Assembly (NCBI RefSeq): GCF_009932555.1
Contig: NZ_BLJO01000005.1
Location: 209,140-273,139 of the forward strand
Reading direction: 5' to 3'
Length of the DNA: 64,000 nt
Origin: Steroidobacter agaridevorans
GTDB taxonomy: Bacteria > Pseudomonadota > Gammaproteobacteria > Steroidobacterales > Steroidobacteraceae
The translations under genes were made by a program, and so were the position numbers. Below the pieces are notes generated by a model. The model was not told the origin of the DNA. It ran no database searches and was given only the letters and a program-made list of their open reading frames with translations. Positions 34,053 to 45,979 of this stretch are shown here, one piece after another; position 1 is the first letter of the stretch; each line of letters begins with the position of its first letter.

Positions 34053-35435
34053 CTACTGAGCTTCGCGGGCGCCTTGCACGACCACGGCGCTGTCAGCCGG
34101 ATCCGAAGTGCCCAAGCGTCGTTGGATGTCCTCGAGCCGGACGCCGCTGGTCTCGGGAAAGAACATCCACACGACCAGGAACTGCAGGATCACCATGACC
34201 AGGAACACGAAGAACGGACCGGACTGCGACTGAGTCGCGATCACCGGAAACGCGGCCGACACGATGGCATTCATGACCCAATGCGTCGAACTGCCGAGAC
34301 TCTGTCCTTGCGCGCGCACGCGATCGGGAAAGATTTCGCTCAAGTACACCCAGACGACCGCACCCTGCGAGAACGCAAAGAACGCCACGTAACCGACCAC
34401 GAACACCAGCAGCGTTTGCTGATACTGCTGGATCCGGAAGATCGTCGCGATGGCGGCCAGGCACACTGCCAGTCCGACGGAGCCGACCAACAACAGCGTC
34501 CGCCGACCGAACCGATCGATCAGGCTCAGCGCGATGAGGGTTGCGATCAACATCGTCGCACCGACGGCCACCGCCTGCGCGTTCTGCGACGCCCGATCGA
34601 AGCCAGCCATCTGGAAGATATCGTTCAAGTAATAGAGCACCGCGTTGATGCCGATCAACTGGTTGAACATGGCCAGCACCAGCGCCAGCAGGATCGGGCG
34701 GCGATAACGCCATTGAAACAGACGATCCGAGCTCGGCCCCACATCCGCCTGCAGCGATGCACGGATGGTTTCCCGCTCGGTTTGCGGCTGCGGCGAGCCG
34801 AGCTTCCCAAGCACCTGATCTGCTTCCATCAAGCGATTCTGTGCGATCAACCATCGCGGGCTCTGCGGAATGCCGACCAGCATCCATAGAAACAGCGCCG
34901 CCGGTGCAGCTGCGACGCCCAGCTGCCAGCGCCACTCGATATCGCCCAGCGCAAACGATCCGATCACGTAGTTCGACAGATACGCGAGCAGAATGCCGCC
35001 GATGATATTTATCTGAAACGCGCCGACCAATCGCCCGCGCCACGCAGCGGGAGCAATCTCGGCGATGTACACCGGTGCAATCACAGATGAACCGCCCATG
35101 CCGAGGCCGCCGACAAAGCGGAAGATCAACAGCCACGTCCAGGATGTGGAAAGCGCGCAGCCCAACGCCGATACGAGATAGCACGCGGCCAGGATCAGCA
35201 AACTCGTGCGCCCGCCTAGCGCGCGGCCAAGCCAGCCTGCCGCCATCGCGCCCAGCACCGTGCCCCACAGCGCGGCCGACACTGTGAACCCCAGCTCGGC
35301 CGGCGAGAGATTGAATACTCGGGTCAGTCCCTGCGTCGACCCGGCGATGACCGCCGTATCGAAACCGAGCAGCGAGCCACCCAGCGCAGCGACGAAGACC
35401 GTGCGGATCAAGGTACCGTTGAGCGTCTGTTTCAT
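34053..35435 (-). CDS. Sugar porter, MFS family, of the RpiR-linked sugar cluster
   Basis: About 460 residues from the ATG at 35435, with twelve predicted membrane segments. Sugar-porter motifs are visible: GGSLLGFDTAVIAG, RFVGGLGMGGSSVIAPVYIAE, PQSPRWLI, NQLIGINAVLYYLND, DRFGRRTLL and FPETSG. It imports a sugar or sugar alcohol with protons; which one is unknown. Last of ten minus-strand genes, its ATG overlaps the TGA of the preceding gene (ATGA), showing that it belongs to the cluster. It is clearly different from the xylose-operon porter at 24656-26146, so the two are not a local duplication. Confidence 0.88.
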   Translation of the reverse strand: MKQTLNGTLIRTVFVAALGGSLLGFDTAVIAGSTQGLTRVFNLSPAELGFTVSAALWGTVLGAMAAGWLGRALGGRTSLLILAACYLVSALGCALSTSWTWLLIFRFVGGLGMGGSSVIAPVYIAEIAPAAWRGRLVGAFQINIIGGILLAYLSNYVIGSFALGDIEWRWQLGVAAAPAALFLWMLVGIPQSPRWLIAQNRLMEADQVLGKLGSPQPQTERETIRASLQADVGPSSDRLFQWRYRRPILLALVLAMFNQLIGINAVLYYLNDIFQMAGFDRASQNAQAVAVGATMLIATLIALSLIDRFGRRTLLLVGSVGLAVCLAAIATIFRIQQYQQTLLVFVVGYVAFFAFSQGAVVWVYLSEIFPDRVRAQGQSLGSSTHWVMNAIVSAAFPVIATQSQSGPFFVFLVMVILQFLVVWMFFPETSGVRLEDIQRRLGTSDPADSAVVVQGAREAQ

Positions 35436-36610
35436 TGTAATGCGAGCCCCGGTAAGGTTCCCGTGCGCAGGAAGTCGAGATGACAATAGACCGCCACCGC
35501 GGCGCCCGACGCCGCGCGCAGCACGATGCTGTTATCCCTCCAGTGACCTTCGATATCGGCGACGCAGTCGAAATCTGCCGGTACGCGCGCGACGCCCTGG
35601 AGATAAAAGATAGAGAGCCGGCCGCGCACATCCGGCCGCAAAGAAGTCGGTATGCCTCGCGCGTTCAATGGATTCTCCCGGCAGGACGCGGCGAGCCCGG
35701 CGTGAAAGTAGGCCGTGATGTCCTCGATGCCCATGACGTTGACGTGCCTGCCATTCCACGGCGGAAAATGACGTCCGCCATTGGAGAACCACAGCAGCGT
35801 CGACGCGAGTTGCTTCGGGTCGCGCAATGCGAACCAAACAAATCGTTGCTCCGGAAAGGTCACGGCCGACCAGGCGAACTCTTGCGCCGGGTCCGCGCAC
35901 AATAGCGCGAGATCTTCGAATCCGCGTCGCGCGGGATAGCGGCACAGATCCGTGGTCGAGCCATCGATGCATGGCGCGGCATGTAGATCGACGATCTGCT
36001 GATCCGTCTGGAGCCACGAGTAGCCGCGATCTTCCGGCCTGGCAGTTGGCTCAACATACGTGCGCGCATGAAGCAACGAACTAAACGAGAGCCGGGCAGC
36101 GCCCTGGCCGGTAGGAAACGCAAGTGTCGCGTGATGACCCGGGTTGATCGGCCCGGTCAGGCCCGAGAGGTCGTGCCGTTGATAAACGATCGATTGATTG
36201 GCGAGCAGCGCGGTGGTCGCATGGCATGCGCCACCTTGCAACGGCATGTCGACCCCCAGCCGCAGCCAGCAGCCGTCGTTTGTTTCTCCACTATCGATCT
36301 CGCGCCATTCGCGATTCGCGGTTTCACCGTGCGGCGGCAAACGCTGGCCACGATACGGCTCGGCGTTCTCACCAAATGCCGAGCAGAACCAGTCGCCACG
36401 CAATGCCCGAAGCATCGGCGGCACATCGGCAGGCAATGATTCCTGTGCCCACGGCGCAATCGCGTAAGGCTGAATGGGCTCATCGTCTCTGGGAAAAAAC
36501 GTAACCGGACCCAGCATGCCGCCGGTCCGGGTCAACGCCAGCTCGACATCCCGCGAGCCCAGCAGGAATGAGTCCTGCCCCTGAATCTTGACAGTGGACT
36601 CGAAGGTCAT
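35432..36610 (-). CDS. Hypothetical protein, possible aldose-epimerase-like (mutarotase) fold
   Basis: A 392-residue cytosolic protein, rich in beta-strand patterns. I do not recognise it firmly; the pattern of sugar-cluster genes, the NPGHHATLAFP and YQRHDLSGLTGPINPGHH stretches and the large all-beta character resemble aldose-1-epimerase-like proteins (for example the DUF4432 group), which interconvert sugar anomers. Conserved-looking His residues in this stretch and Glu/Asp residues further on could form the site. It sits between the lyxose-isomerase-like gene and the porter, 13 bases after the former and overlapping the latter by 4, consistent with an early step on a freshly imported sugar. 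Confidence 0.6.
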   Translation of the reverse strand: MTFESTVKIQGQDSFLLGSRDVELALTRTGGMLGPVTFFPRDDEPIQPYAIAPWAQESLPADVPPMLRALRGDWFCSAFGENAEPYRGQRLPPHGETANREWREIDSGETNDGCWLRLGVDMPLQGGACHATTALLANQSIVYQRHDLSGLTGPINPGHHATLAFPTGQGAARLSFSSLLHARTYVEPTARPEDRGYSWLQTDQQIVDLHAAPCIDGSTTDLCRYPARRGFEDLALLCADPAQEFAWSAVTFPEQRFVWFALRDPKQLASTLLWFSNGGRHFPPWNGRHVNVMGIEDITAYFHAGLAASCRENPLNARGIPTSLRPDVRGRLSIFYLQGVARVPADFDCVADIEGHWRDNSIVLRAASGAAVAVYCHLDFLRTGTLPGLALQ

Positions 36611-36623
36611 GCGACACCGGGCG

Positions 36624-37295
36624 TCAATATTCAGTACACAGTTTGTGCGTCACCGGCTCGTCTTCGTCGATGGTCGGAAAGCGCCCGACCTTGGCATGGA
36701 AGGCATTGTCGGTCTCATCGTCGTTGACCGACGAGACTTCGCCCACGATGGCCGTCCCTCTGCCTTCCTCGGCCCAGAACTCGTGATACAGATAGGGCGT
36801 CAAGGTGATGGAGTCGCCCGGCTGCAAGCGAAATGTATGTCCTGCCTTCACACGGTAGCGCACGCCGTCCAGCGAGACTTCGACATCCGAGTCCGAAAGC
36901 GTGCCGTCCGGGCCGCGATTGAACAGACGAATCAGCAGATTGCCGCCCGACTTGCAGATGATGTCCTCGGACTTGAGCATGTGATGGTGCATCGGCGTGT
37001 GCTGATTCTCTTGAATCACCAGGATCTTCTCGGCGTACGGCTTCTTGTTGTAAGGCGCGATCTTGTGATGCCCGTTACGCACCGTGAAGACCACCAGGCC
37101 GACTTTGTCGAAATCTCCCGAGCCGAAATCGGTGATATCCCAGCCCAGCTTGCATTGACGGATCTCATCGCATTCCTCGCCCTTGGTCGCCCACTCGGCG
37201 GGACTCCAATAAGCGAACGGCGGCAGGCGCACCTGATGTTCGTGCAGCAGCGCGATCGCGTCATCGATCAGCGCATTGATCTCGGATCGTTTCAT
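36624..37295 (-). CDS. D-lyxose ketol-isomerase-like protein
   Basis: A 223-residue cupin matching bacterial D-lyxose isomerases in length and motifs. The metal site is visible in TPMHHHMLKSEDII (His, His, Glu) with a later His in YLYHEFWAEEG. Known members convert D-lyxose to D-xylulose and D-mannose to D-fructose, and cupin isomerases of this type also act on other aldoses. ATG at 37295 is preceded by GGGGGAA, a strong ribosome binding site. In this cluster it would turn the imported aldose into a ketose before phosphorylation; the true substrate cannot be read from sequence. Confidence 0.85.
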   Translation of the reverse strand: MKRSEINALIDDAIALLHEHQVRLPPFAYWSPAEWATKGEECDEIRQCKLGWDITDFGSGDFDKVGLVVFTVRNGHHKIAPYNKKPYAEKILVIQENQHTPMHHHMLKSEDIICKSGGNLLIRLFNRGPDGTLSDSDVEVSLDGVRYRVKAGHTFRLQPGDSITLTPYLYHEFWAEEGRGTAIVGEVSSVNDDETDNAFHAKVGRFPTIDEDEPVTHKLCTEY

Positions 37296-37304
37296 CGTTC
37301 CCCC

Positions 37305-39269
37305 TCAGATGACCCGCTCGTTGCCGCCATCCACTGGAATCTGCGCGCCCGTGGTCCTGGAGAACCGGGGCCCGCACAGTTCGGCGGCCAGCTCCGCCAC
37401 ATCTTTGCTCGTCACCTCGACCTTGAGGACGTTGTTTGTTTTGTATTCCTGGACACTCAGTTTGTAGGAGGCCGCACGCGCGGCCAGCACTTCAGGTGTC
37501 CAGATGGCCGTATCGAAAACGGCATTCGGATGCACGCAGTTCACGCGAATGCCATCGCCACCCCACTCCAGCGCCGCAACTCGCGCCAGCTGTTGCATCG
37601 CCGATTTCGAAGCCGAGTAAGCCGCAGCTCCCGGCCCCGGGGCGGCGACATTCTTGGATCCGATAATCACCACCCGCCCCCCGCGCGGCGCGAGCTTCAG
37701 CAGTGGATGACATTCCCGCATCAGCACCAGGTTTGCATCCAGATTAATACTCATGGTCCGGCGCCATACGTCGGTGGCCAGCGCGGCAATTGGCGAGCTC
37801 TTTGGAAAGATCCCGGCATTCAGGACCAACATATCGATCGAACCGAAGGTGCGCACGGCCTGATCCAGCGCCGCGCCGATCCGCTCCTCATCGGTGAGAT
37901 TGCACTCGATGCCCAGATAGCTCTTCCGGTCGTACAGATGTTTGACGGCCGGCGCCACATCCAGGCCGATGACGGCGGCGCCGCGCGCGAGTAATGCATC
38001 GACGCAGGCTTTGCCGATGCCCGAAGCCGCCCCAGTCACCAGCGCTACTTCACCCAGGAAATCGCATTCAGGATCGGGCTTCGTGAGCTTGGTGCGCTCC
38101 AGGTCCCAGAACTCGACATCGAAGAAGTCTCTGGCTGGCAGCGCCTTCCAGCCACCGAGTTTCTCGGCGCTCATGATGATGTCGATGGTGTGCCGATAGA
38201 TATCTTCGGCGATACCCGCATCCTCGGCGCTCCGGCCCAGCACCACCATCCCGAGCTCCGGATCCAGAATGACGCGCGGCGCCGGATCGACGACCGCCAA
38301 TGTGCGTCCCGCTGCGTAGGCCCGCGCATAATCTTGATATGCCGCCGCGTAGGCCGCGACATCGCGCCCCACCATCGGCACGCGCTTCGTACGAATGACG
38401 TGATCGGGCGTCACGCCGCCACGCTGAGACAACTCGAGCACATCGGTACGCCGAGCAAAGCCCAACGCCTGTGAGTCCGAGCGCACTGTCATCACCATAG
38501 GCGCTCCGGCCGCGTCGCTCACTTTTCGACGAAGCGCCGCGATCTCCGCGCGTGGCTGAGGCTTCACCGGCTGCGTAAGCCATTCGATCCGGCCGGCGCC
38601 GTGCGTCTCGAGATAGCGCTCCGCCTGCGACACCAGATCGATCATGCGCTCGTAAGAAATCTTCGCCGATTCGCCGAAGGTAAAGAGCCCGTGATGCATC
38701 AGCACGACGCCAATGGTTTCGCGCGTCGCTTCCTTGGAAAGAATCTCGCGGCACAGACGCACCAGCTTGAAGCCCGGCATCGCATAAGGAATGATCACGA
38801 CCTGCGTGCCGTAGATCTCCTGCAAGCGCTCGAAGCCATTGCGTGAGTTCATCACGGCGATGAGCGCATCGGCGTGCGTATGGTCGACGAACTTCTGTGG
38901 AAGTAGCGCGTGCAGCAGCGTTTCCACCGACGGCGCGGGAGCGGAGGCACGCGTCAATGACAACTTCAGCTCGCTCTCCATCTGCTCGTCGGACAGTTCG
39001 GAGAGACTCACGAGCCGTAGCAGCCGCCGCAACCGACACGGCGAAAATCCGGCCGCGTCGATCGTGCTCAGATCCGCGCCGCGACCTTTGACGTACAGCA
39101 CTTCTTCGGATTCGCCGAAGAGATTCGGCTCGAGCAGCTTGACCGAGGTGTTGCCGCCGCCGTGAAGGACGAGCGAAGGATCGCGACCGAGCAGGCGCGA
39201 AGTGTAGACCCGTTGCCCCAACGGCCCCTGGAATCGGAGCGCGTCCTGATCGTTCCACAAACTGTTCAT
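37305..39269 (-). CDS. Bifunctional class II aldolase/short-chain dehydrogenase (RhaD-like fusion)
   Basis: A 654-residue fusion starting at the ATG 39269, which overlaps the stop of the epimerase gene by 4 bases. Residues about 1-400 are a class II aldolase/adducin domain with the metal ligands in DHTHADA and the later MHHGLF, plus ERYLETHG. Residues about 410-650 are a short-chain dehydrogenase with VTGAASGIGKA, LNAGIFP, catalytic Ser in VIIGSKN and YSASKSA. Related fusions split rhamnulose 1-phosphate into dihydroxyacetone phosphate and lactaldehyde and oxidise the aldehyde. Here no rhamnose isomerase or FGGY kinase accompanies it, so its ketose phosphate is probably a different one. Confidence 0.87.
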   Translation of the reverse strand: MNSLWNDQDALRFQGPLGQRVYTSRLLGRDPSLVLHGGGNTSVKLLEPNLFGESEEVLYVKGRGADLSTIDAAGFSPCRLRRLLRLVSLSELSDEQMESELKLSLTRASAPAPSVETLLHALLPQKFVDHTHADALIAVMNSRNGFERLQEIYGTQVVIIPYAMPGFKLVRLCREILSKEATRETIGVVLMHHGLFTFGESAKISYERMIDLVSQAERYLETHGAGRIEWLTQPVKPQPRAEIAALRRKVSDAAGAPMVMTVRSDSQALGFARRTDVLELSQRGGVTPDHVIRTKRVPMVGRDVAAYAAAYQDYARAYAAGRTLAVVDPAPRVILDPELGMVVLGRSAEDAGIAEDIYRHTIDIIMSAEKLGGWKALPARDFFDVEFWDLERTKLTKPDPECDFLGEVALVTGAASGIGKACVDALLARGAAVIGLDVAPAVKHLYDRKSYLGIECNLTDEERIGAALDQAVRTFGSIDMLVLNAGIFPKSSPIAALATDVWRRTMSINLDANLVLMRECHPLLKLAPRGGRVVIIGSKNVAAPGPGAAAYSASKSAMQQLARVAALEWGGDGIRVNCVHPNAVFDTAIWTPEVLAARAASYKLSVQEYKTNNVLKVEVTSKDVAELAAELCGPRFSRTTGAQIPVDGGNERVI

Positions 39270-39967
39270 CGCAACGCGCCTGTCATGGCCCTGGCATTCT
39301 CCAACGGAGCCTTGCCATCGAAGACCGCGCTGCCGGTGACGATGATGTCGGCGCCGAGGCGGGCGATGCTCCCAATGTTGTCTCGCGTGACGCCGCCGTC
39401 CACGCATATCAACGCCGTATCTCGCACGATCTCTCGCAGCCGTTTGACACGATCGCAGGTCGACGCGATGAACTTCTGACCGCCCCAGCCGGGATTCACC
39501 GCCAACATCAGCACCAGCTCGAATTCGCCCGCCAGCGGCTCCAGCACTTCCAGCGGCGTGCCGGGATTCAAAGCGATGCCACGCACGATGCCGCGGTTCG
39601 AATCGTTGGCATTGGTCATCTTGCCCAACGCCTGCAGCACGCGATGAATATGACGAGTGGATTCAGCGTGCACAGTGATGATGTCGGCGCCGGCGGCGAC
39701 GAACGCATCCAGCTTGCTGAGCGGATCTTCGATCATCAGGTGCACGTCTTTGAGCAGACGCGTCTTGAGCCCCGCGACGACGGGCGCGCCCATGGTCAAC
39801 ATGGGGCAGAACATGCCGTCCATCACATCGAAGTGCAGGAGTTCGACGCCGGCGCTTTCGAGGATCTCCAGCTGCGAGCCTAGCGTCAGCCAGTCCGCGG
39901 TGAGCACCCCAACGCTGATCTGAGGCGCGGAGGCGCGCAAACGATCAACCAGAGGTGAGCGCGCCAT
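39266..39967 (-). CDS. Ribulose-phosphate 3-epimerase family protein
   Basis: A 233-residue TIM-barrel protein of the Rpe family. Metal and catalytic residues are visible in LHFDVMDGMF (His, Asp), VHLMIEDP, VNPGWGGQKF and the catalytic Asp in CVDGGVT. Rpe interconverts D-ribulose and D-xylulose 5-phosphate; family members in catabolic clusters epimerise other ketose phosphates. Sequence details such as SVGVLTADWLTLGSQ differ from housekeeping Rpe (usually SILSADF), so it is probably a pathway-specific paralogue. It lies between the LsrF-like gene (1 base) and the aldolase fusion (4-base overlap). Confidence 0.87.
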   Translation of the reverse strand: MARSPLVDRLRASAPQISVGVLTADWLTLGSQLEILESAGVELLHFDVMDGMFCPMLTMGAPVVAGLKTRLLKDVHLMIEDPLSKLDAFVAAGADIITVHAESTRHIHRVLQALGKMTNANDSNRGIVRGIALNPGTPLEVLEPLAGEFELVLMLAVNPGWGGQKFIASTCDRVKRLREIVRDTALICVDGGVTRDNIGSIARLGADIIVTGSAVFDGKAPLENARAMTGALR

Positions 39968-39968
39968 T

Positions 39969-40862
39969 TCAACGTCCTTTCGACTCTTCGCTTCTCAACG
40001 TCAGGAACAGCTCATGCGCTTCCTTCGGCTTGAGACCGCTGTGCACGACTTTGTGAATCGCCAGCATCATGGCGCGCGGCGCTTCGCTCTGGAAAATATT
40101 GCGCCCCATGTCGACGCCGGCGGCGCCTCGCTGAATCGCGTTATAAGCCATGGTCAGCGCGTCCAATTCCGGCAGCTTCTTGCCGCCCGCCATCACGATG
40201 GGCACTGGGCACGAAGCCGTGACCGTTTCGAAACCTTCGGCGCAGTAATACGTCTTGACGATCTGCGCGCCCAGCTCGGCACAGATGCGGCAGGCCAGGC
40301 GGAGATACTGAGCATCGCGCGTCAGCTCCTTGCCCACGGCGGTAACCGCCATCGTCGGAATGCTATAGCGCAGGCCCATGTCGACGAGCCGCGTCATGTT
40401 GTGAACCGAGTGCGTCTCGAACTGTCCGCCGATGAACACCTGCGTGGTCAGCGCCGAAACATTCATGCGAATGGCGTCTTCGATATCGACCGCCAGCTCC
40501 TCGTTCGACAGTTCCTTGAGAATGCTCGGACCGCCGCTACAACGCATGACGATGGGTTTGTTGATCGCCGGCGGCACCGTGGTCCGCAAAATGCCGCGCG
40601 TGAGCATCAGTGCATCGGCCATGGGCATGAGCGGGACGATGTTGAGGTCCACCCGTTCCAGGCCGGTCGTCGGCCCTTGGAAATATCCATGGTCGATGGC
40701 GAGCATCACCGTGCGCGCGGTTTCAGGATTGAAGATGCGCGCCAGGCGATTCTTCATGCCCCAGTCGAGCGAGCCCGCTCCGCGCAGAAAGAATCCGGGC
40801 GTGCGCATCGGCACGTCCTCGTGGAAATTCTTTGCTTCTCTGAGTGCTTCTGTATCAGCCAT
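39969..40862 (-). CDS. LsrF-like class I aldolase/thiolase
   Basis: The 297-residue protein resembles E. coli LsrF over its whole length: [36 protein letters not shown], the Schiff-base Lys region [23 protein letters not shown] and [11 protein letters not shown]. LsrF moves an acetyl group from a phosphorylated 2,4-diketone (from AI-2) to coenzyme A, forming dihydroxyacetone phosphate and acetyl-CoA. None of the lsr transporter, kinase (LsrK) or LsrG genes is here, so AI-2 is not the evident substrate; an analogous diketone or ketose phosphate is more likely. The start at 40862 overlaps the E1 gene by 8 bases; upstream in-frame starts lie in that gene. Confidence 0.87.
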
Positions 40863-42870
40863 GGCTTTCCTCCAATATCTCGCGCACTCCCATCGAGATG
40901 CAGTCCGCATTGGGGCGGTATGCGTTTTCGAGCACGGGAGTGAAAGGAACAGGAACATCGGGCGAGGCCACGCGCGTTACGCGCACGGACGGCCAACGCT
41001 CGGCGATACCGGCGGCGATCTCGGCGCCCACGCCGCCAGTCACCGGCCCTTCTTCGACGATGACGGCGTGACCGGTCTTGCGCACCGATGCGCCGATCGT
41101 TTCCCAATCGATGGGAGACAGACTGCGCACGTCGATCACTTCCGCGTCGAGCTCATCGGCCACTTGCATTGCGTAGTGGACCATCAAGAGCCAGGCCAAC
41201 ACCGTCACGCGCTTGCCTTCGCGCCGAACCGCGGCTTTGCCGATCGGTACCACATAGTCTTCCAACGGAACATCGCTCGACGCATCGACCGCACCGCCCT
41301 CGGCGCGCGCGCCCTTCGAGCCGTACAACAACTTGTGCTCGAACATGAGCACAGGATTGCCGTCGCGTAACGCCGCCTTGAGCAAGCCCTTGGCGTCGTA
41401 TGCATTCGAGGGCGCAACTACTTTCAGCCCAGGAACGCCAGTGAAATAGCGCTCCATGTTTTGCGCATGCTGCGAGCCTCGGCCCGTCGCCCCTACCGGC
41501 GCACGCATGACCAACGGGACGCTGATCGTTCCGCCGGACATGTAACGAAGCTTGGCCGCGTTATTGATGATTTGATCGCTCGCGAGGAACAGGAAATCGC
41601 CATACTGCACGTCGGCGATCGGCCGCATGCCCATCACGGCCGCCCCGGTGGCCAGGCCGAAGAAACCGAGCTCCGCGATCGGTGTATTGATCATCCGCTC
41701 CGGAAATCTTTTCTCCAGGCCCAGCGTCACCGTGAACGCACCGCCCCACCCCCCCGGCACCCCAATATCCTCGCCGATGCAGAACACGCGCGGATCCGCA
41801 GCCATTTCTTCGGTAATACCCTCGCGCAACGCCTCGGCAATGCCGAGACGCCGCGTTGATCCACCTGCGCTCACGACGGGGTTTAGTTGTTCATTGAGCG
41901 CAGATGGCCGCGGCGACGCCTCGGCAAAAACGTAGTCGGTCAGGTCGCTGGCGCTCGGATGAGGCGCGACCTTTGCTCGCTCGACCGCTGCGGTGAGCGT
42001 CTTTTGAATGCGGGTATTGATGAGCTCGTGCTCTTCGGCCGTAATCTGAACCTTCGCGGCGAAGCGCTCGATGGGATCGCGTTGCGCCCAGGCCTCGCGC
42101 TCATCCTTCGGTTGGTAATGACACGGGTCGCGACGCGAGTGCCCGGTGCGACGATAGGTCATCAGCTCCAGCAGCACCGGACCGTGGCCGGCGCGACATT
42201 CGGCGACCGCCTTCTGTGCAGCTTCATACACTGCGAGAACATCGTTGCCGTCGACTGTTTCACCGCGGAATCCGTACGACTTCGCGCGATCCGAGATGCG
42301 CGAGTTCTTCATTACCAGATCGACATGCGTCGACGCGCCGTACAGATTGTTCTCGCACACCAGGATGAGCGGCAGATTCCAGATGGCCGCCATGTTGACG
42401 CCTTCGTGGAACGCGCCTTCGGCGATGGCGCCGTCACCGAAGAAGGACGCCACTACGTGTGGCTTGTTTTCCAACTTGAATGACAGCGCCATGCCGGCGG
42501 CCAACGGAATGCCGCCTGCCACGATGGCGATACCCGGCACCATCCCCTTGCTCATATTGCCGACGTGCATCGAGCCGCCCCGGCCCTTGCAACACCCGGT
42601 CTCCGCGCCAAACAGCTCATCCATCAATTCTTGCGGCGCCAATCCCTTGGCCAGCGCATGGCCGTGGCCACGAAATGTCGAAGTGATCCAATCATCGGAC
42701 GACAGCGCCGTGCACACGCCGACAGCGGTCGCCTCCTGGCCCTGACATTGATGAATCGTTCCCGGCATGGTGCCTTCGAGGAACAGGAATTTGACCGTGT
42801 CCTCGAACTCGCGGATCAGCACCATCCGCTCGTACATGTCGAGCAGGAACTTGCGATCGTAGCCAGGCAT
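40855..42870 (-). CDS. Fused alpha/beta thiamine-dependent 2-oxoacid (or acetoin-type) dehydrogenase E1
   Basis: A 671-residue protein in which the E1 alpha and beta subunits, usually two genes, are joined. Residues about 1-325 are E1 alpha with [11 protein letters not shown], the thiamine diphosphate motif [15 protein letters not shown] to ENN, and a possible phosphorylation-loop region (RTGHSRRDP). Residues about 345-670 are E1 beta ([33 protein letters not shown]). Such enzymes decarboxylate a 2-keto acid or cleave an alpha-diketone and pass the acyl group to lipoate. The ATG at 42870 shares one base with the stop of the lipoyl-domain gene. There is no E2 acyltransferase core or E3 in the window. 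Confidence 0.88.
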
Positions 42871-43112
42871 CAGCTCACCTTGATGGTCGCGATGACGGTG
42901 CCGACGGGAACCTTCTGCCCGGACTGCACATGGATGGTGGCCAGGGTGCCGTTGGCGATGCACTCCACTTCCTGGACCGCTTTGTCGGTTTCGATCTCGA
43001 GCAGCGCCTGACCGCGCTTCACGGGGTCGCCCACATTAGCCAGCCAGCGGGTGATGCCGAGCTCCACGCCTTCGTTGGTGGCGAGATCCGGCATCTTCAT
43101 ATTTACATCCAT
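42870..43112 (-). CDS. Free-standing lipoyl domain protein, 80 aa
   Basis: The whole protein is one lipoyl domain: MPDLATNEGVELGITRWLANVGD at the start and the lipoylation site in EIETDKAVQEVE (Lys44), ending IATIKVS. It has no E1/E3-binding segment and no acyltransferase core, unlike E2 subunits of about 400 residues, and it is a complete gene with ATG at 43112, two bases after the kinase stop. A longer frame to 43694 overlaps the kinase and is not credible. It probably carries the acyl group made by the adjacent E1. What takes the acyl group from it is unknown; a distant E2 or another protein of the cluster are possible. Confidence 0.85.
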   Translation of the reverse strand: MDVNMKMPDLATNEGVELGITRWLANVGDPVKRGQALLEIETDKAVQEVECIANGTLATIHVQSGQKVPVGTVIATIKVS

Positions 43113-43114
43113 CG

Positions 43115-44071
43115 TCAATGTTCCTCGCTGGTAACAGGCAACGGATGCGTGCCTAGAAATGTATCGGCTTCTTCGGCGCTGAACACGGAGTCGGTTGTGC
43201 CCGCAGCCCTGGTAGCGGACGCGCCGACGGCGCTCGCATAGCGAAGTGTTTGCTGCAGGTCCCAGCCCTCGAGCAGGCTGCGGATGACGCCCGACGTGAA
43301 TGCATCCCCGGAGCCGGACGGATCGACGACAGCCATGCGGTAGGCCCCGCAACTCCACATCTTGCCGTCCCGCCCGGCGACGGACCCATGTGGGCCACGC
43401 GTGATGATCACGGTGTTTGCACCGGCATCTTTCAGCGCGCTCAGTTGGTCGTGCGGATCGGCGAAACCCGTGAAGGCGCGCGCTTCGTCGTCGTTCGGCA
43501 GAAATACATCGATGTAGGGCAGCAAGGGGGCCAACTGCGCCATGCCCGTCATTCCTTGCGGAACGACCACATCGACGACGGTCTTGACCTCGGCTTCCCT
43601 GCAGAACTGCAGCAGCGCTTTGAGCTTCGCGAAGTCGATGCCCGGCATGACAAACAGGCCGCCGAGATAGAACACTTTCAGCGACTCCAGCCACTGGGGC
43701 GAGATGCGATCGATGCTGAATGCGTGGTTGGCGCCGAATGTATGCAGGTAACGGCGATCCTGATTTTCAATCAGCAGCACGATCGTCCGACTGGTCGGAT
43801 ACTGCTCGACCCGCTCTACCAGCGAACAACCGACGTCGTGCCTGTTGAACGCTTTGAAAAGCGTTTCGGCGGAGCCGTCGCGGCCGACACAGCCGACGAC
43901 ATCGACACTGACGCCTTGTTTGGCCAGATCGATAGCGACATTCGCGGCACAACCGCCGGCTCGTACCGGCAGGTCGTCCAGCGCGTGCAATTGTCCCGCC
44001 GGTGGCAGGGCCGGAAGCGGGCCACAGAATGTGTCTTCGACCAGGATTCCTGCGCAGCCCACATCAGGCAT
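43115..44071 (-). CDS. PfkB-family sugar kinase
   Basis: A 318-residue ribokinase-family protein. The first signature is in RAGGCAANVAIDLAKQGV, the second in VVDPSGSGDAFTSG with the catalytic Asp at about residue 256; TRGPHGSV precedes it. Kinases of this family phosphorylate ribose, fructose, ketoses and similar compounds in the cytosol. Here it would activate the ketose made by the lyxose-isomerase-like enzyme. It lies 3 bases after the first cluster gene and 2 before the lipoyl gene. Confidence 0.88.
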   Translation of the reverse strand: MPDVGCAGILVEDTFCGPLPALPPAGQLHALDDLPVRAGGCAANVAIDLAKQGVSVDVVGCVGRDGSAETLFKAFNRHDVGCSLVERVEQYPTSRTIVLLIENQDRRYLHTFGANHAFSIDRISPQWLESLKVFYLGGLFVMPGIDFAKLKALLQFCREAEVKTVVDVVVPQGMTGMAQLAPLLPYIDVFLPNDDEARAFTGFADPHDQLSALKDAGANTVIITRGPHGSVAGRDGKMWSCGAYRMAVVDPSGSGDAFTSGVIRSLLEGWDLQQTLRYASAVGASATRAAGTTDSVFSAEEADTFLGTHPLPVTSEEH

Positions 44072-44074
44072 GGC

Positions 44075-44935
44075 TCACGCCCTTCCGCAGCAACCGAGAA
44101 GATCGATCCGCTCCAGTACCGCTTCCTTCACGACGCGACGGCCGATCACCATCAGGTCGGTGCCGCTGCCATCGCCGAGCAGTGCATGCGGATTCGGCTC
44201 GGCGGTGTCCAGCGCCTCGCGGATGGTTCGAAGATACTTCTGTTTCATATAGGTGCCATAGTTGATCTTCCTGACACCCAGATGGATGGCGGCCTTGATC
44301 GAGTCGTCCTCGATACCGGTCCCCCCGTGTAATACCAAGGGCACATCGAGCCGCCGGCCCAGCGCTTCGAGCCGGCTCAGATCCAACGGCGCGCGGCCTT
44401 GCAGTTTGATTTCTTCGTTCCCGACGCTGACCGCGAGCAGATCGACGCCAGTTTCCGTTACGAACTGCACGGCGCCGTCGGCGTACGCGGCGGTGTCCAG
44501 ATCGTCGGCTTCGAAATCCGCTTCCACCGCGACCTGCCGGCTGTGGGCCAATGCCGTGAGCCGCTTCACCCGGCGGGTGTAATCCTCCAGCGGCGCATGC
44601 GGATCGGCCGGCATGACCAGGTTGAACCCCGCGCCGATGGCCTGTTCCACCCACGCATCGTTGGGGCATTCATTGAAGATGAACCCGACCGGCACATCGG
44701 CTTCGATGGCCGCCGCTTTGCCGAGCGCGGCGTACAGGCGCAACTCCTGGGCCGAGGCGTTCTGCCGTTCCGCGAGCCATTCGCCGTTGAAGCCGATGAT
44801 GATGGGCGAGCGGGTTGCCTCGGCCGCATCGATCACGCCTTGCACGGACTCGAGGCTCCAGCTTTCGAAATAGCCGAGCGCATAGTCGTGATGGCGGGCG
44901 TGCTGCATCAGTCGATTGATCGGTTCGAGCGACAT
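44075..44935 (-). CDS. Class II fructose-bisphosphate aldolase homologue lacking zinc ligands
   Basis: About 286 residues from the ATG 44935; a TTG further upstream has no support. The fold matches KbaY/AgaY-type class II aldolases, with LVLHGGTGIEDD and IHLGVRKINYGT well kept. But where active members have HLDH (catalytic Asp and first Zn His) this one reads GFIFNECPN, the region of the second Zn His (GTAHG) reads GNEEI, and VEAELG reads VEADFE. Only the last His (HGG) remains. Zinc-dependent aldol cleavage by the usual route seems unlikely; the protein may bind another metal, work by another mechanism or be regulatory. It is the first gene of the cluster, facing the RpiR operators, with 3 bases to the kinase. 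Confidence 0.8.
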   Translation of the reverse strand: MSLEPINRLMQHARHHDYALGYFESWSLESVQGVIDAAEATRSPIIIGFNGEWLAERQNASAQELRLYAALGKAAAIEADVPVGFIFNECPNDAWVEQAIGAGFNLVMPADPHAPLEDYTRRVKRLTALAHSRQVAVEADFEADDLDTAAYADGAVQFVTETGVDLLAVSVGNEEIKLQGRAPLDLSRLEALGRRLDVPLVLHGGTGIEDDSIKAAIHLGVRKINYGTYMKQKYLRTIREALDTAEPNPHALLGDGSGTDLMVIGRRVVKEAVLERIDLLGCCGRA

Positions 44936-44994
44936 TGGAAAAACCCGCGATGACAAAGACTGAAATGGCTGTGAACTAGCGCCGGAACTACGAC

Positions 44995-45007
44995 TGAACT
45001 ATGTTCA
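44995..45007. promoter_or_regulatory. Operator copy 1 (TGAAC-N3-GTTCA) of the RpiR-linked cluster
   Basis: TGAACTATGTTCA has perfect 5-bp arms around 3 bases. Its 15-base context ACTGAACT..GTTCA recurs exactly 31 bases further on, three helical turns, so proteins at both copies would face the same side of the DNA. It lies between the divergent aldolase-like and rpiR genes. Confidence 0.7.
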
Positions 45008-45025
45008 CTAATATTGTAGTGTTAC

Positions 45026-45038
45026 TGAACTTGGTTCA
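45026..45038. promoter_or_regulatory. Operator copy 2 (TGAAC-N3-GTTCA) of the RpiR-linked cluster
   Basis: TGAACTTGGTTCA repeats copy 1 with two changes in the spacer. It lies 50 bases before the rpiR GTG start and 90 from the first cluster gene, suited to control of both directions. Confidence 0.7.
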
Positions 45039-45088
45039 AAACTACGCGGCCGCTGGTGTGCTGTCAAGGCTGCTCATAGAATGGTCCT

Positions 45089-45979
45089 GTGCGACGCAAG
45101 AACTCTGCATTAAAGGCATCGACTGACACGCTTGGGGGCGACGGCCGGCGGCCGTTGCTGACCTATATCAAAGGCATCCTCGCGTCCCTCAATCCGACAG
45201 ACCGGTTGATCGCCGACTGTGTGCTCGCCGACCCGGAACGGGTCATCACCTCATCGATCGCACAGTTGAAAGACGACTGTGGCGCCAGTGTCGGCGCCAT
45301 CGTGGCGTTCTGCCGTCGCGTCGGTGTCGCGGGTTTTGCCGAGTTCAAAATCGCCCTGGCCCGCGACCTGGCGCAGTCGGGCCTGCCGGCCGGACAGGGG
45401 CAGGAAAGCGGCACGCTGCTCGAGAAGGTGTTCCAGGTTCACGCGCAGAGCCTGACGGAAACCTTGCAGATCAACCCGCCCGCCCAGTTCGAGAAGATCG
45501 CGCAAGTCATCGACAAGAGCCGGCGCGTGGAGCTGTTCTCCATCGGCCTGTCCTATCCGGTCGCTCACACGGCGTACTGCAAGTTCCTGCTGCTGGGACT
45601 GCAGGCGTCGGCGCATTTCGACTCGCATATCCAGCTCATCGCCGCGACTCAGCTGGAGAAAGGCGATGTGGCCATCGGTATTTCGTTGTCGGGCACCACT
45701 CGCGAAACGGTGGAATGCCTGAAAGTCGCCAAGGCCAAGGGCGCCACCACCATCGGGCTCACCAATGCCATGAAGTCGCCGATCACGACTTACAGCGATT
45801 ACTGCCTGTACGCGACGCCGAGCGAGATCAAATATTTCCAGGCGCCGCTCGCCTCGCGCGTGACGCAGCTGGCGTTGATCGATGCGTTATTCGTTTTTCT
45901 GGCGCTGAAACACAAGAGCCGCACGGCGGCCAAGCTGCAGTCCTCCGGCGAGGAACTGATCAAGCGCCGGATCGAGTGA
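45089..45979 (+). CDS. RpiR/MurR-family transcriptional regulator
   Basis: A 296-residue regulator beginning at a GTG. The N-terminal helix-turn-helix domain is at about 22-100 (LNPTDRLIADCVLADPERVITSSIAQLKDDCGASVGAIVAFCRRVG), and the SIS phosphosugar-binding domain at about 140-275 (VELFSIGLSYPVA, VAIGISLSGTTRETVE). RpiR-type regulators sense sugar phosphates. It is divergent from the ten-gene cluster across the two operator copies and surely controls it; the ligand is probably a phosphorylated pathway intermediate. It is convergent with the TRIC-like gene downstream. Confidence 0.9.
   Translation: MRRKNSALKASTDTLGGDGRRPLLTYIKGILASLNPTDRLIADCVLADPERVITSSIAQLKDDCGASVGAIVAFCRRVGVAGFAEFKIALARDLAQSGLPAGQGQESGTLLEKVFQVHAQSLTETLQINPPAQFEKIAQVIDKSRRVELFSIGLSYPVAHTAYCKFLLLGLQASAHFDSHIQLIAATQLEKGDVAIGISLSGTTRETVECLKVAKAKGATTIGLTNAMKSPITTYSDYCLYATPSEIKYFQAPLASRVTQLALIDALFVFLALKHKSRTAAKLQSSGEELIKRRIE

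Follow-up and report, generated by a model that had tools for sequence, protein, structure and literature searches.

A conserved Steroidobacter operon that may turn an uncommon sugar into triose phosphate and acyl-CoA through a fused E1 and a free lipoyl domain

The window analyzed here is a stretch of 64,000 nucleotides from contig NZ_BLJO01000005.1 of the soil bacterium Steroidobacter agaridevorans (Steroidobacteraceae). Ten of its minus-strand genes (34053 to 44956), with a divergent RpiR-family regulator on the plus strand, constitute a real and conserved operon without a match to any characterized pathway in the open-access literature searched. A preliminary description of this DNA had judged that the gene set fits no known pathway, and searches of open-access literature, not all of them aimed at this operon, likewise yielded no characterized operon with the same genes. 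We tentatively favor the reading that the operon encodes an inducible pathway, under the control of RpiR, by which a rare or deoxy sugar is converted to triose phosphate and to acetyl-CoA or a related acyl-CoA. This is a plausible mechanism whose catalytic steps, substrate, and acyl group we infer from gene content, conservation, and residue patterns.

RESULTS

Organization of the operon

Genes were assigned to families from Pfam and NCBIfam profile scores set against the family cut-offs, and junctions were measured between genes taken to begin at their likely ATG codons, as judged from the translated open reading frames (ORFs). The first gene encodes a protein resembling class II fructose-bisphosphate aldolase (FBA-like; 44075 to 44935; PF01116, 159.7 bits); its ORF opens with TTG at 44956, and the likely start is the ATG at 44935. 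There follow a PfkB sugar kinase (43115 to 44071), whose best NCBIfam match is the IolC type at 119.5 against a cut-off of 300; a stand-alone lipoyl domain (42870 to 43112) with an ETDKA lipoyl-lysine motif and without an E2 catalytic domain; a fused E1 alpha-beta protein, assigned with Pfam and NCBIfam to the thiamine diphosphate (ThDP)-dependent 2-oxoacid/acyloin dehydrogenase type (40855 to 42870); and an LsrF-type 3-hydroxy-2,4-pentanedione-5-phosphate (P-HPD) thiolase (39969 to 40862; NF006081, 492 bits against 297; PDB 3gkf, E = 3e-113). The next gene (39266 to 39967; PF00834, 181 bits) is a paralogue of ribulose-phosphate 3-epimerase (RPE), which falls below the cut-off of TIGR01163 (195 bits against 212.6) and above that of the subfamily NF004076 (173 against 165). 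It is succeeded by a fusion of a RhaD-like class II aldolase to a short-chain dehydrogenase (SDR) (37305 to 39269; NF006196, 1011 against 831) and by a cupin of the D-lyxose/D-mannose isomerase (LYI) family (36624 to 37295; PDB 3kmh, E = 3e-63), which scores 319 bits for PF07385 (cut-off, 20.8) and 270 for the NCBIfam equivalog NF051472, below its cut-off of 350. The last two genes encode a mutarotase-like protein of 392 amino acids (35432 to 36610) and a sugar porter of the major facilitator superfamily (34053 to 35435; PF00083, 344 bits; TIGR00879, 338 against 237.8).

From the first gene to the last, the junctions are gaps of 3 and 2 bases, overlaps of 1 and 8, a gap of 1, an overlap of 4, gaps of 9 and 13, and a final overlap of 4. 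ORFs and junctions thus agree with the earlier view that the ten genes, with gaps of at most 13 bases and several overlaps, are one operon. The divergent gene (45089 to 45979, plus strand) was rightly called an RpiR regulator, both of its domains scoring over cut-off (HTH_6 PF01418, 57.5 against 28.3; SIS PF01380, 71.2 against 25). Profile matches also bear out the earlier family calls for the porter, LYI, fusion, RPE, LsrF, E1, lipoyl domain, and PfkB kinase. The mutarotase-like label alone found no backing: Pfam, NCBIfam, and PDB sequence searches returned zero matches, and a single-sequence structure model (predicted local distance difference test score, 30) was unusable.

The divergent promoter contains a palindrome, TGAACTATGTTCA (44995 to 45007), and a second copy, TGAACTTGGTTCA (45026 to 45038), 31 bases from the first. 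Both are kept as TGAAY-N3-RTTCA in five aligned promoters in which the side facing the first operon gene is variable, and the pair occurs once in the 8.0-Mb genome, which is assembled in 26 contigs. This pair is likely the RpiR operator; conservation on the side facing RpiR is about equal to that of the palindromes themselves.

Conservation and spread of the gene set

A scan for the fused E1 over genomes of 84,980 species, one per species, gave 79 loci. Counts below use 76 of them, leaving out three Brevibacillus loci whose E1 is of the DXR-II-linked kind described below and including L090 and L102, although their E1s fall outside the cluster clade; several contigs are short, and the gene counts are lower bounds. 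By their titles, the 76 are mostly metagenome-assembled genomes of Planctomycetota, Verrucomicrobiota, and Chloroflexota.

Three other Steroidobacteraceae loci (L038, L039, and L052) have the complete set of eleven genes in identical order, and a fourth, L040, has every gene that its 7.8-kb contig reaches; in all four an RpiR homologue occupies the matching divergent position. Beyond the family, a core of FBA-like protein, PfkB, lipoyl domain, and thiamine E1 is found again in Planctomycetota, Verrucomicrobiota, and Chloroflexota and is for that reason not a product of chance. The lipoyl domain was found in 66 loci, the FBA-like gene in 53, PfkB in 35, SDR in 23, RhaD in 17, LYI in 11 (strict threshold), LsrF in 10, and RPE in 8. 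Where FBA-like and PfkB genes are both present, they lie on the same strand (33/33), and LsrF-RPE and RPE-SDR are each adjacent in seven of seven cases, three of the seven being Steroidobacteraceae. The full set in three relatives and its subsets in several phyla bear out the proposal of one operon serving one pathway, for which the preliminary description had named co-occurrence in other genomes as the test against chance assembly.

The operon E1 shares 97% identity with its counterpart in Peristeroidobacter agariperforans (L052). Among 196 sampled genomes of the order, a high-identity E1 appeared in the operon's own genome only, the next among the matches listed being about 45% identical; at an E value of 1e-30, LsrF was found in 1 of 274 genomes of the class, again its own. 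The Steroidobacteraceae E1s group with the Verrucomicrobiota loci L047 and L075 (tree support, 0.915), and their LsrF groups with that of the Opitutaceae locus L063 (0.998), groupings that fit horizontal transfer of the cluster. The site of the operon is partly shared within the family, with downstream neighbors in common: a phosphodiesterase gene recurs in L038, L039, and L052, the DUF2459 and BON genes in the last two of these.

A fused E1 with a distinctive pocket

In a tree of 109 E1s (query coverage, >80%), a clade of 65 (support, 0.946) unites the E1 of the window with those from 64 of the 76 loci. Its sister, at 0.997, is the E1 of an Arthrobacter plasmid (L117), whose cluster also encodes an FBA-like protein, a lone lipoyl domain, two FGGY kinases, an ABC transporter, and an SDR. 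A second fused E1 alpha-beta is encoded in the window's own genome (G000:C2:9098-11053, L036) and is 45% identical to that of the operon.

Five residues, T40, S182, R248, Q424, and T464, are constant in 65/65 cluster E1s. The same five positions are kept in all ten of the DXR-II-linked E1s, position 248 being occupied by K in eight and by R in two, while the complete set occurs in none of 33 other E1s and four of the five occur in the Arthrobacter E1. In the other E1s, position 40 is Phe in 22/33, 248 is Glu in 18/33, and 424 is Met in 27/33. These five were chosen among some 40 positions specific to the cluster, and most of the 40 are not shared by the DXR-II group. Position 248 lies two residues after a His that is constant in all 109 E1s, at the loop with phosphorylation site 1 in human pyruvate dehydrogenase (PDH). 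A basic residue here would fit a phosphorylated substrate, and the pattern shared with the DXR-II-linked E1s suggests that the operon E1 cleaves a phosphorylated ketose and not pyruvate.

Like acetoin and pyruvate dehydrogenase complexes, the operon has E1 alpha and beta folds and ThDP and lipoyl motifs; it differs from them in its sugar context, in the missing E2 catalytic domain, and in E1 scores below the PDH cut-offs for both alpha (TIGR03182, 336 against 394; TIGR03181, 254 against 411) and beta (300 against 454 and 293 against 321). An ordinary PDH paralogue was rejected on these scores and on the differing pocket positions. One study reports that a mutant PDH E1 makes Escherichia coli produce 1-deoxyxylulose 5-phosphate (DXP) in vivo (PMC3424233); chemistry on this acyloin is therefore within reach of E1 enzymes.

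E1 genes linked to DXR-II

Among the best 30 of 840 records with a similar E1, eight plasmid regions were opened. Seven (L118 to L124) have, just upstream of the E1, an oxidoreductase homologous to that of L119, which matches PDB 3upl (5e-205), presumably the Brucella DXR-like enzyme; the Arthrobacter region L117 is without it. In the Brevibacillus loci (L056 to L058), a 41 to 42% identical homologue of the DXR-II-type gene lies about 5 kb downstream of the E1. The DXR-II family itself has been described (PMC3847144). Sugar-type transporters accompany the six annotated plasmid loci, a Gut-type phosphotransferase system (PTS) in L121 to L124 and an ABC transporter with a sugar kinase in L119 and L120, and an E2 was found in nine of the ten DXR-II/E1 clusters (seven by profile, two by AcoC annotation), the tenth being that of L118, an unannotated record.

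In a reverse check, 16 DXR-II homologues were spread over 89 plasmid records, ten of them examined; six of the 16 adjoin an E1 (L119 and L122, which were opened, and four by coordinates). The link is common in close homologues and not general. In one Listeria innocua region (L133), genes for a sugar-binding regulator and a Gut-type PTS accompany a DXR-II homologue, and there is no E1.

The alphaproteobacterial plasmid and Brevibacillus clusters thus resemble the operon in the T, S, R/K, Q, T pattern of their E1 and, in six plasmid loci, in their sugar-type transporters. They differ in having DXR-II and mostly an E2; the window operon has neither and instead has an isomerase, an epimerase, LsrF, and the FBA-like protein. 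Their content suggests uptake and phosphorylation of methylerythritol, oxidation of methylerythritol phosphate to DXP, and splitting of DXP by the E1 to acetyl-CoA and glyceraldehyde 3-phosphate (G3P). L118 to L124 and L056 to L058 are therefore put forward as candidate 2-C-methylerythritol catabolic clusters; no description of such a role was found in the literature searched.

A lipoyl domain without a dedicated E2

Neither Pfam nor a purpose-built E2-catalytic-domain profile found an E2 catalytic domain in the window operon. Seven such domains are encoded elsewhere in the genome, so transfer to CoA in trans is possible. Applied to 78 loci (the window, the 76, and Arthrobacter), the profile found no E2 in 42 of the stretches, 26 of which span at least 15 kb; it was positive in 18/32 other E1 loci and in 7/10 DXR-II loci, two of the three that it missed being annotated with an AcoC-type E2. 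Free lipoyl domains occur in the window, L042, L105, and L115, and the one in L113 has an E3-binding domain attached. In 11 loci (six Pfam-checked) the lipoyl domain is fused in one open frame to the N terminus of E1 alpha, and no E2 domain was found near any of the 11. In an Anaerolineae locus (L051, 9482 to 12007), lipoyl domain, E1 alpha, and E1 beta form a single frame of 842 amino acids.

A lone or E1-fused lipoyl domain is hence a recurrent design. The lone carrier noted in the preliminary description is thus not peculiar to this genome. A full, Pfam-checked E2 does occur in L063. The idea that LsrF replaces E2 was rejected, as 29 E2-less lipoyl loci are without LsrF and three LsrF loci have an E2.

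An aldolase-like protein with replaced catalytic residues

The HLDHG motif of class II aldolases holds the catalytic Asp and the first zinc-binding His, and HGGTG holds a further zinc-binding His. Aligned with the class II aldolases 7ncc and 3q94, the FBA-like protein has FNEC where HLDHG stands. Among rows exceeding 100 bits and 240 amino acids, the window included, N95-E96 occurs in 52 of 52, so that the catalytic Asp and first zinc-binding His are absent throughout, and the zinc-binding H210 of HGGTG is kept in all 52. Position 182 is His in 46/51 and Glu in five, including the window. Counted by gene, the NE motif is present in 51/53 FBA-like genes, the remaining two being fragments of 91 and 97 amino acids at contig ends, and the Arthrobacter plasmid copy likewise reads FNE.

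With its catalytic Asp and a zinc-binding His replaced, the protein belongs to a distinct subfamily that is not to be filed as fructose-bisphosphate (FBP) aldolase, and plain FBP aldolase was rejected as its identity. The earlier label of aldolase-like accordingly holds for the PF01116 match and fails for the catalytic residues. The protein is probably not an ordinary aldolase and probably acts as an isomerase or rearrangement enzyme. A PfkB kinase beside a class II FBA-like protein resembles the IolC/IolJ pair of myo-inositol catabolism; the operon proteins differ in scoring far below the IolC and FBA cut-offs and in the replaced catalytic residues.

LsrF and the aldolase-dehydrogenase fusion

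P-HPD is the known substrate of LsrF, in which KTYY is the Schiff-base Lys motif and a DHG motif is also characteristic. The operon protein keeps both motifs, is 61% identical to LsrF of a Klebsiella lsr operon, and is the sole DeoC/LacD-family match at an E value of 0.001 in the genome; it belongs to a clade of its own (16 sequences; support, 0.95). P-HPD is the 4-dehydro form of both 5-deoxypentulose-1-phosphate and DXP. LsrF and a DXP-type E1 would therefore use phosphates that differ by a single redox step, each yielding an acetyl unit and triose phosphate. This convergence is the core of the favored reading.

The intact LsrF-family thiolase is a likeness to degradation of autoinducer 2 (AI-2) by LsrK, LsrG, and LsrF, from which the operon differs in its PfkB, isomerase, E1, and lipoyl genes and in the separate clade of its LsrF. 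Pfam and NCBIfam found no LsrK-, LsrG-, LsrB-, or LsrR-type gene in the operon, and an AI-2 operon was rejected because nothing beyond LsrF is of lsr type. On a Sagittula plasmid (L126), LsrF stands with an FGGY kinase, a glycerol-3-phosphate dehydrogenase/oxidase, and a class II aldolase/adducin protein, which repeats the combination of kinase, oxidation, and LsrF; this cluster also has an ABC transporter and a regulator, and no E1 is annotated in the stretch. On two Bacteroidota plasmids (L010 and L011), lsrF follows dhaK and dhaL, which suggests that LsrF works there with a dihydroxyacetone-type kinase, outside AI-2 metabolism.

The fusion scores below the rhamnose-specific TIGR02632 (431 against 568). 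RhaEW of Chloroflexus aurantiacus and Bacillus subtilis converts L-rhamnulose-1-phosphate to dihydroxyacetone phosphate (DHAP) and L-lactate, and the aldolase activity of the C. aurantiacus enzyme needs its dehydrogenase activity (PMC3870299). By analogy, that dependence would fit oxidation before cleavage. The operon shares an aldolase-SDR fusion with this L-rhamnose pathway, but its fusion is of another NCBIfam subfamily, and it has E1, lipoyl, and LsrF genes in addition; rhamnose isomerase, rhamnulokinase, and RhaM had no match in the window operon. The fusion noted in the preliminary description thus has characterized L-rhamnose relatives.

Neighboring genes

The window operon is without a glycosidase. 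In the other loci, BLAST clustering gave 29 GH38-type genes in 25 loci, and 7/7 tested match GH38; L054 has two GH29 genes and a RhaM domain nearby, and L106 has a weak GH78-like match (25.5 bits against 24.5). These neighbors are of hexose or deoxyhexose types. DUF6259, DUF4450, PhyH, and URO-D proteins also lie near relatives, of which PhyH and URO-D might remove methyl groups, and a protein of some Planctomycetota loci (c20) had no PDB or family match. The RhaD-SDR fusion, GH38, GH29, and weakly the GH78-like gene point to deoxyhexoses, and deoxypentose phosphates are what LsrF, RPE, and E1 suggest. Naming the substrate from neighbor genes was rejected because the signals are mixed.

Elsewhere in the window (6997 to 30767), ending about 3 kb beyond the operon and with its GH67 gene about 11 kb away, is a glucuronoxylan and oxidative xylose locus with genes for a glucuronyl esterase, a TonB receptor, GH3 (twice), GH67, LacI, a sugar porter, an SDR, gluconolactonase, and IlvD/Edd. 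In the flanks of L038, L039, L040, and L052 (up to 10 kb), GH67, IlvD/Edd, and gluconolactonase were not found, and the porter of this locus matched only the operon's own porter (34 to 37%). The two loci therefore need not be related.

DISCUSSION

In the route that we tentatively favor, the porter would import an uncommon, probably deoxy, sugar, the LYI-like cupin would convert the aldose to a ketose for phosphorylation by PfkB, and two carbon-carbon-cleaving systems would split the phosphorylated sugar to triose phosphate and acyl-CoA. In one, oxidation of a carbinol by the SDR domain would yield a P-HPD-like 2,4-diketo phosphate, which LsrF would cleave with CoA to DHAP and an acyl-CoA, acetyl-CoA if the chain is that of a 5-deoxypentulose. 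In the other, the fused ThDP E1 would cleave a phosphorylated acyloin (a 1-deoxyketose or ketose phosphate), releasing an aldose phosphate such as G3P and loading the acyl group onto the free lipoyl domain; the acyl group could then reach CoA through an E2 from elsewhere in the cell or go to a different acceptor. The FBA-like protein would probably make the E1 substrate by isomerization or rearrangement, and RPE may adjust C3. A route from a sugar to triose phosphate and acetyl-CoA, as first proposed, is still the best reading, helped by the identity of LsrF and the comparison with DXR-II-linked E1s.

Several observations weigh against this route. LsrF is present in 10/76 loci and LYI, at the strict threshold, in 11/76, so the core manages without them, and the FBA-like gene was not found in 23/76. 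The E1 tree gives no supported sister grouping of cluster and DXR-II-linked E1s, its deep nodes being weak, and a distant E1 of the window's own genome (L005) has three of the five pocket residues. Four regions with DXR-II homologues, in Phyllobacterium (83% identical), Listeria (41%), Deinococcus (36%), and Chelatococcus (34%), have no E1 within 6 to 7 kb. By counts, absence of E2 is a weak contrast, since the profile missed E2 in 14/32 other E1 loci, whose stretches are shorter. Finally, the GH38 and GH29 genes near relatives hint at substrates of hexose type, whose carbon count leads less directly to acetyl-CoA.

It is possible, if unlikely, that the operon instead degrades a 6-deoxyhexose of the rhamnose or fucose type, the isomerase, the kinase, and the RhaD-SDR fusion together yielding DHAP and lactate as RhaEW does and E1 with the lipoyl domain serving as a dedicated pyruvate dehydrogenase for the pyruvate formed from that lactate. 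The RhaEW precedent and the glycosidases and RhaM domain beside relatives speak for it; the fusion, though, scores above NF006196 and below the rhamnose-specific profile, the E1 is below all four PDH cut-offs with Thr at 40 instead of the common Phe, the operon lacks a lactate dehydrogenase, and LsrF, RPE, and the altered FBA-like protein go unexplained.

We consider it quite improbable that the operon is a pentose "oxidative phosphoketolase" in which D-lyxose is converted through D-xylulose to xylulose-5-phosphate and E1 with the lipoyl domain gives G3P and glycolyl-lipoyl (glycolyl-CoA). LYI and RPE would suit D-lyxose, D-xylulose, ribulose-5-phosphate, and xylulose-5-phosphate; the polar pocket and basic entrance residue shared with the DXR-II-linked E1s would be consistent with it, and the glucuronoxylan locus is in the same window. 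An ordinary transketolase would suffice for such a task, however, and the 2,4-diketone that LsrF requires would not be formed, leaving the RhaD-SDR fusion and FBA-like protein over as well.

Lower still in our estimate is salvage of 5-deoxyribose or an AI-2-like compound by a DHAP shunt or Lsr variant, to which the P-HPD thiolase family of LsrF and the identity of 4-dehydro-5-deoxypentulose-1-phosphate with P-HPD would lend themselves. Pfam and NCBIfam matched no LsrG, LsrB, LsrK family, or nucleoside phosphorylase in the operon; the best AI-2 kinase match in the genome scores 109 against a cut-off of 528, a weak point because no control genome passed either; and the presence of glycosidases near related loci favors sugars released from glycosides. 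That unrelated sugar genes came together by chance, as the separability of submodules might suggest, has next to no probability; it is refuted by the identical gene order in L038, L039, and L052, the E1 and LsrF trees that both tie the Steroidobacteraceae copies to Verrucomicrobiota relatives, and the shared operator pair.

Returning to the favored route, its thiamine-lipoyl half may reach further. A wider proposal, about which we are doubtful, is that the core represents a new thiamine-lipoyl enzyme class for oxidative cleavage of phosphorylated (deoxy)ketoses to acyl-lipoyl and aldose phosphate. Such a class would need no E2 of its own, and its lipoyl domain would occur by itself, as a fusion to E1 alpha, or in a single chain with the two halves of E1. 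A repurposed class II aldolase would feed it, with LsrF acting in parallel in some lineages, and the whole would form an undescribed route over several phyla. To a specialist, the surprising parts would be the altered aldolase and the pairing of E1 with a lipoyl domain in the absence of an E2.

If the favored reading is right, several phyla would share an unrecognized route from deoxy or rare sugars to acyl-CoA and triose phosphate, in which a sugar phosphate takes the place of the 2-oxo acid in E1-lipoyl chemistry. The occurrence of orphan E1s within sugar operons would be explained, LsrF would gain a role outside quorum sensing, and these bacteria would have a path from sugar to acetyl-CoA that bypasses the decarboxylation of pyruvate.

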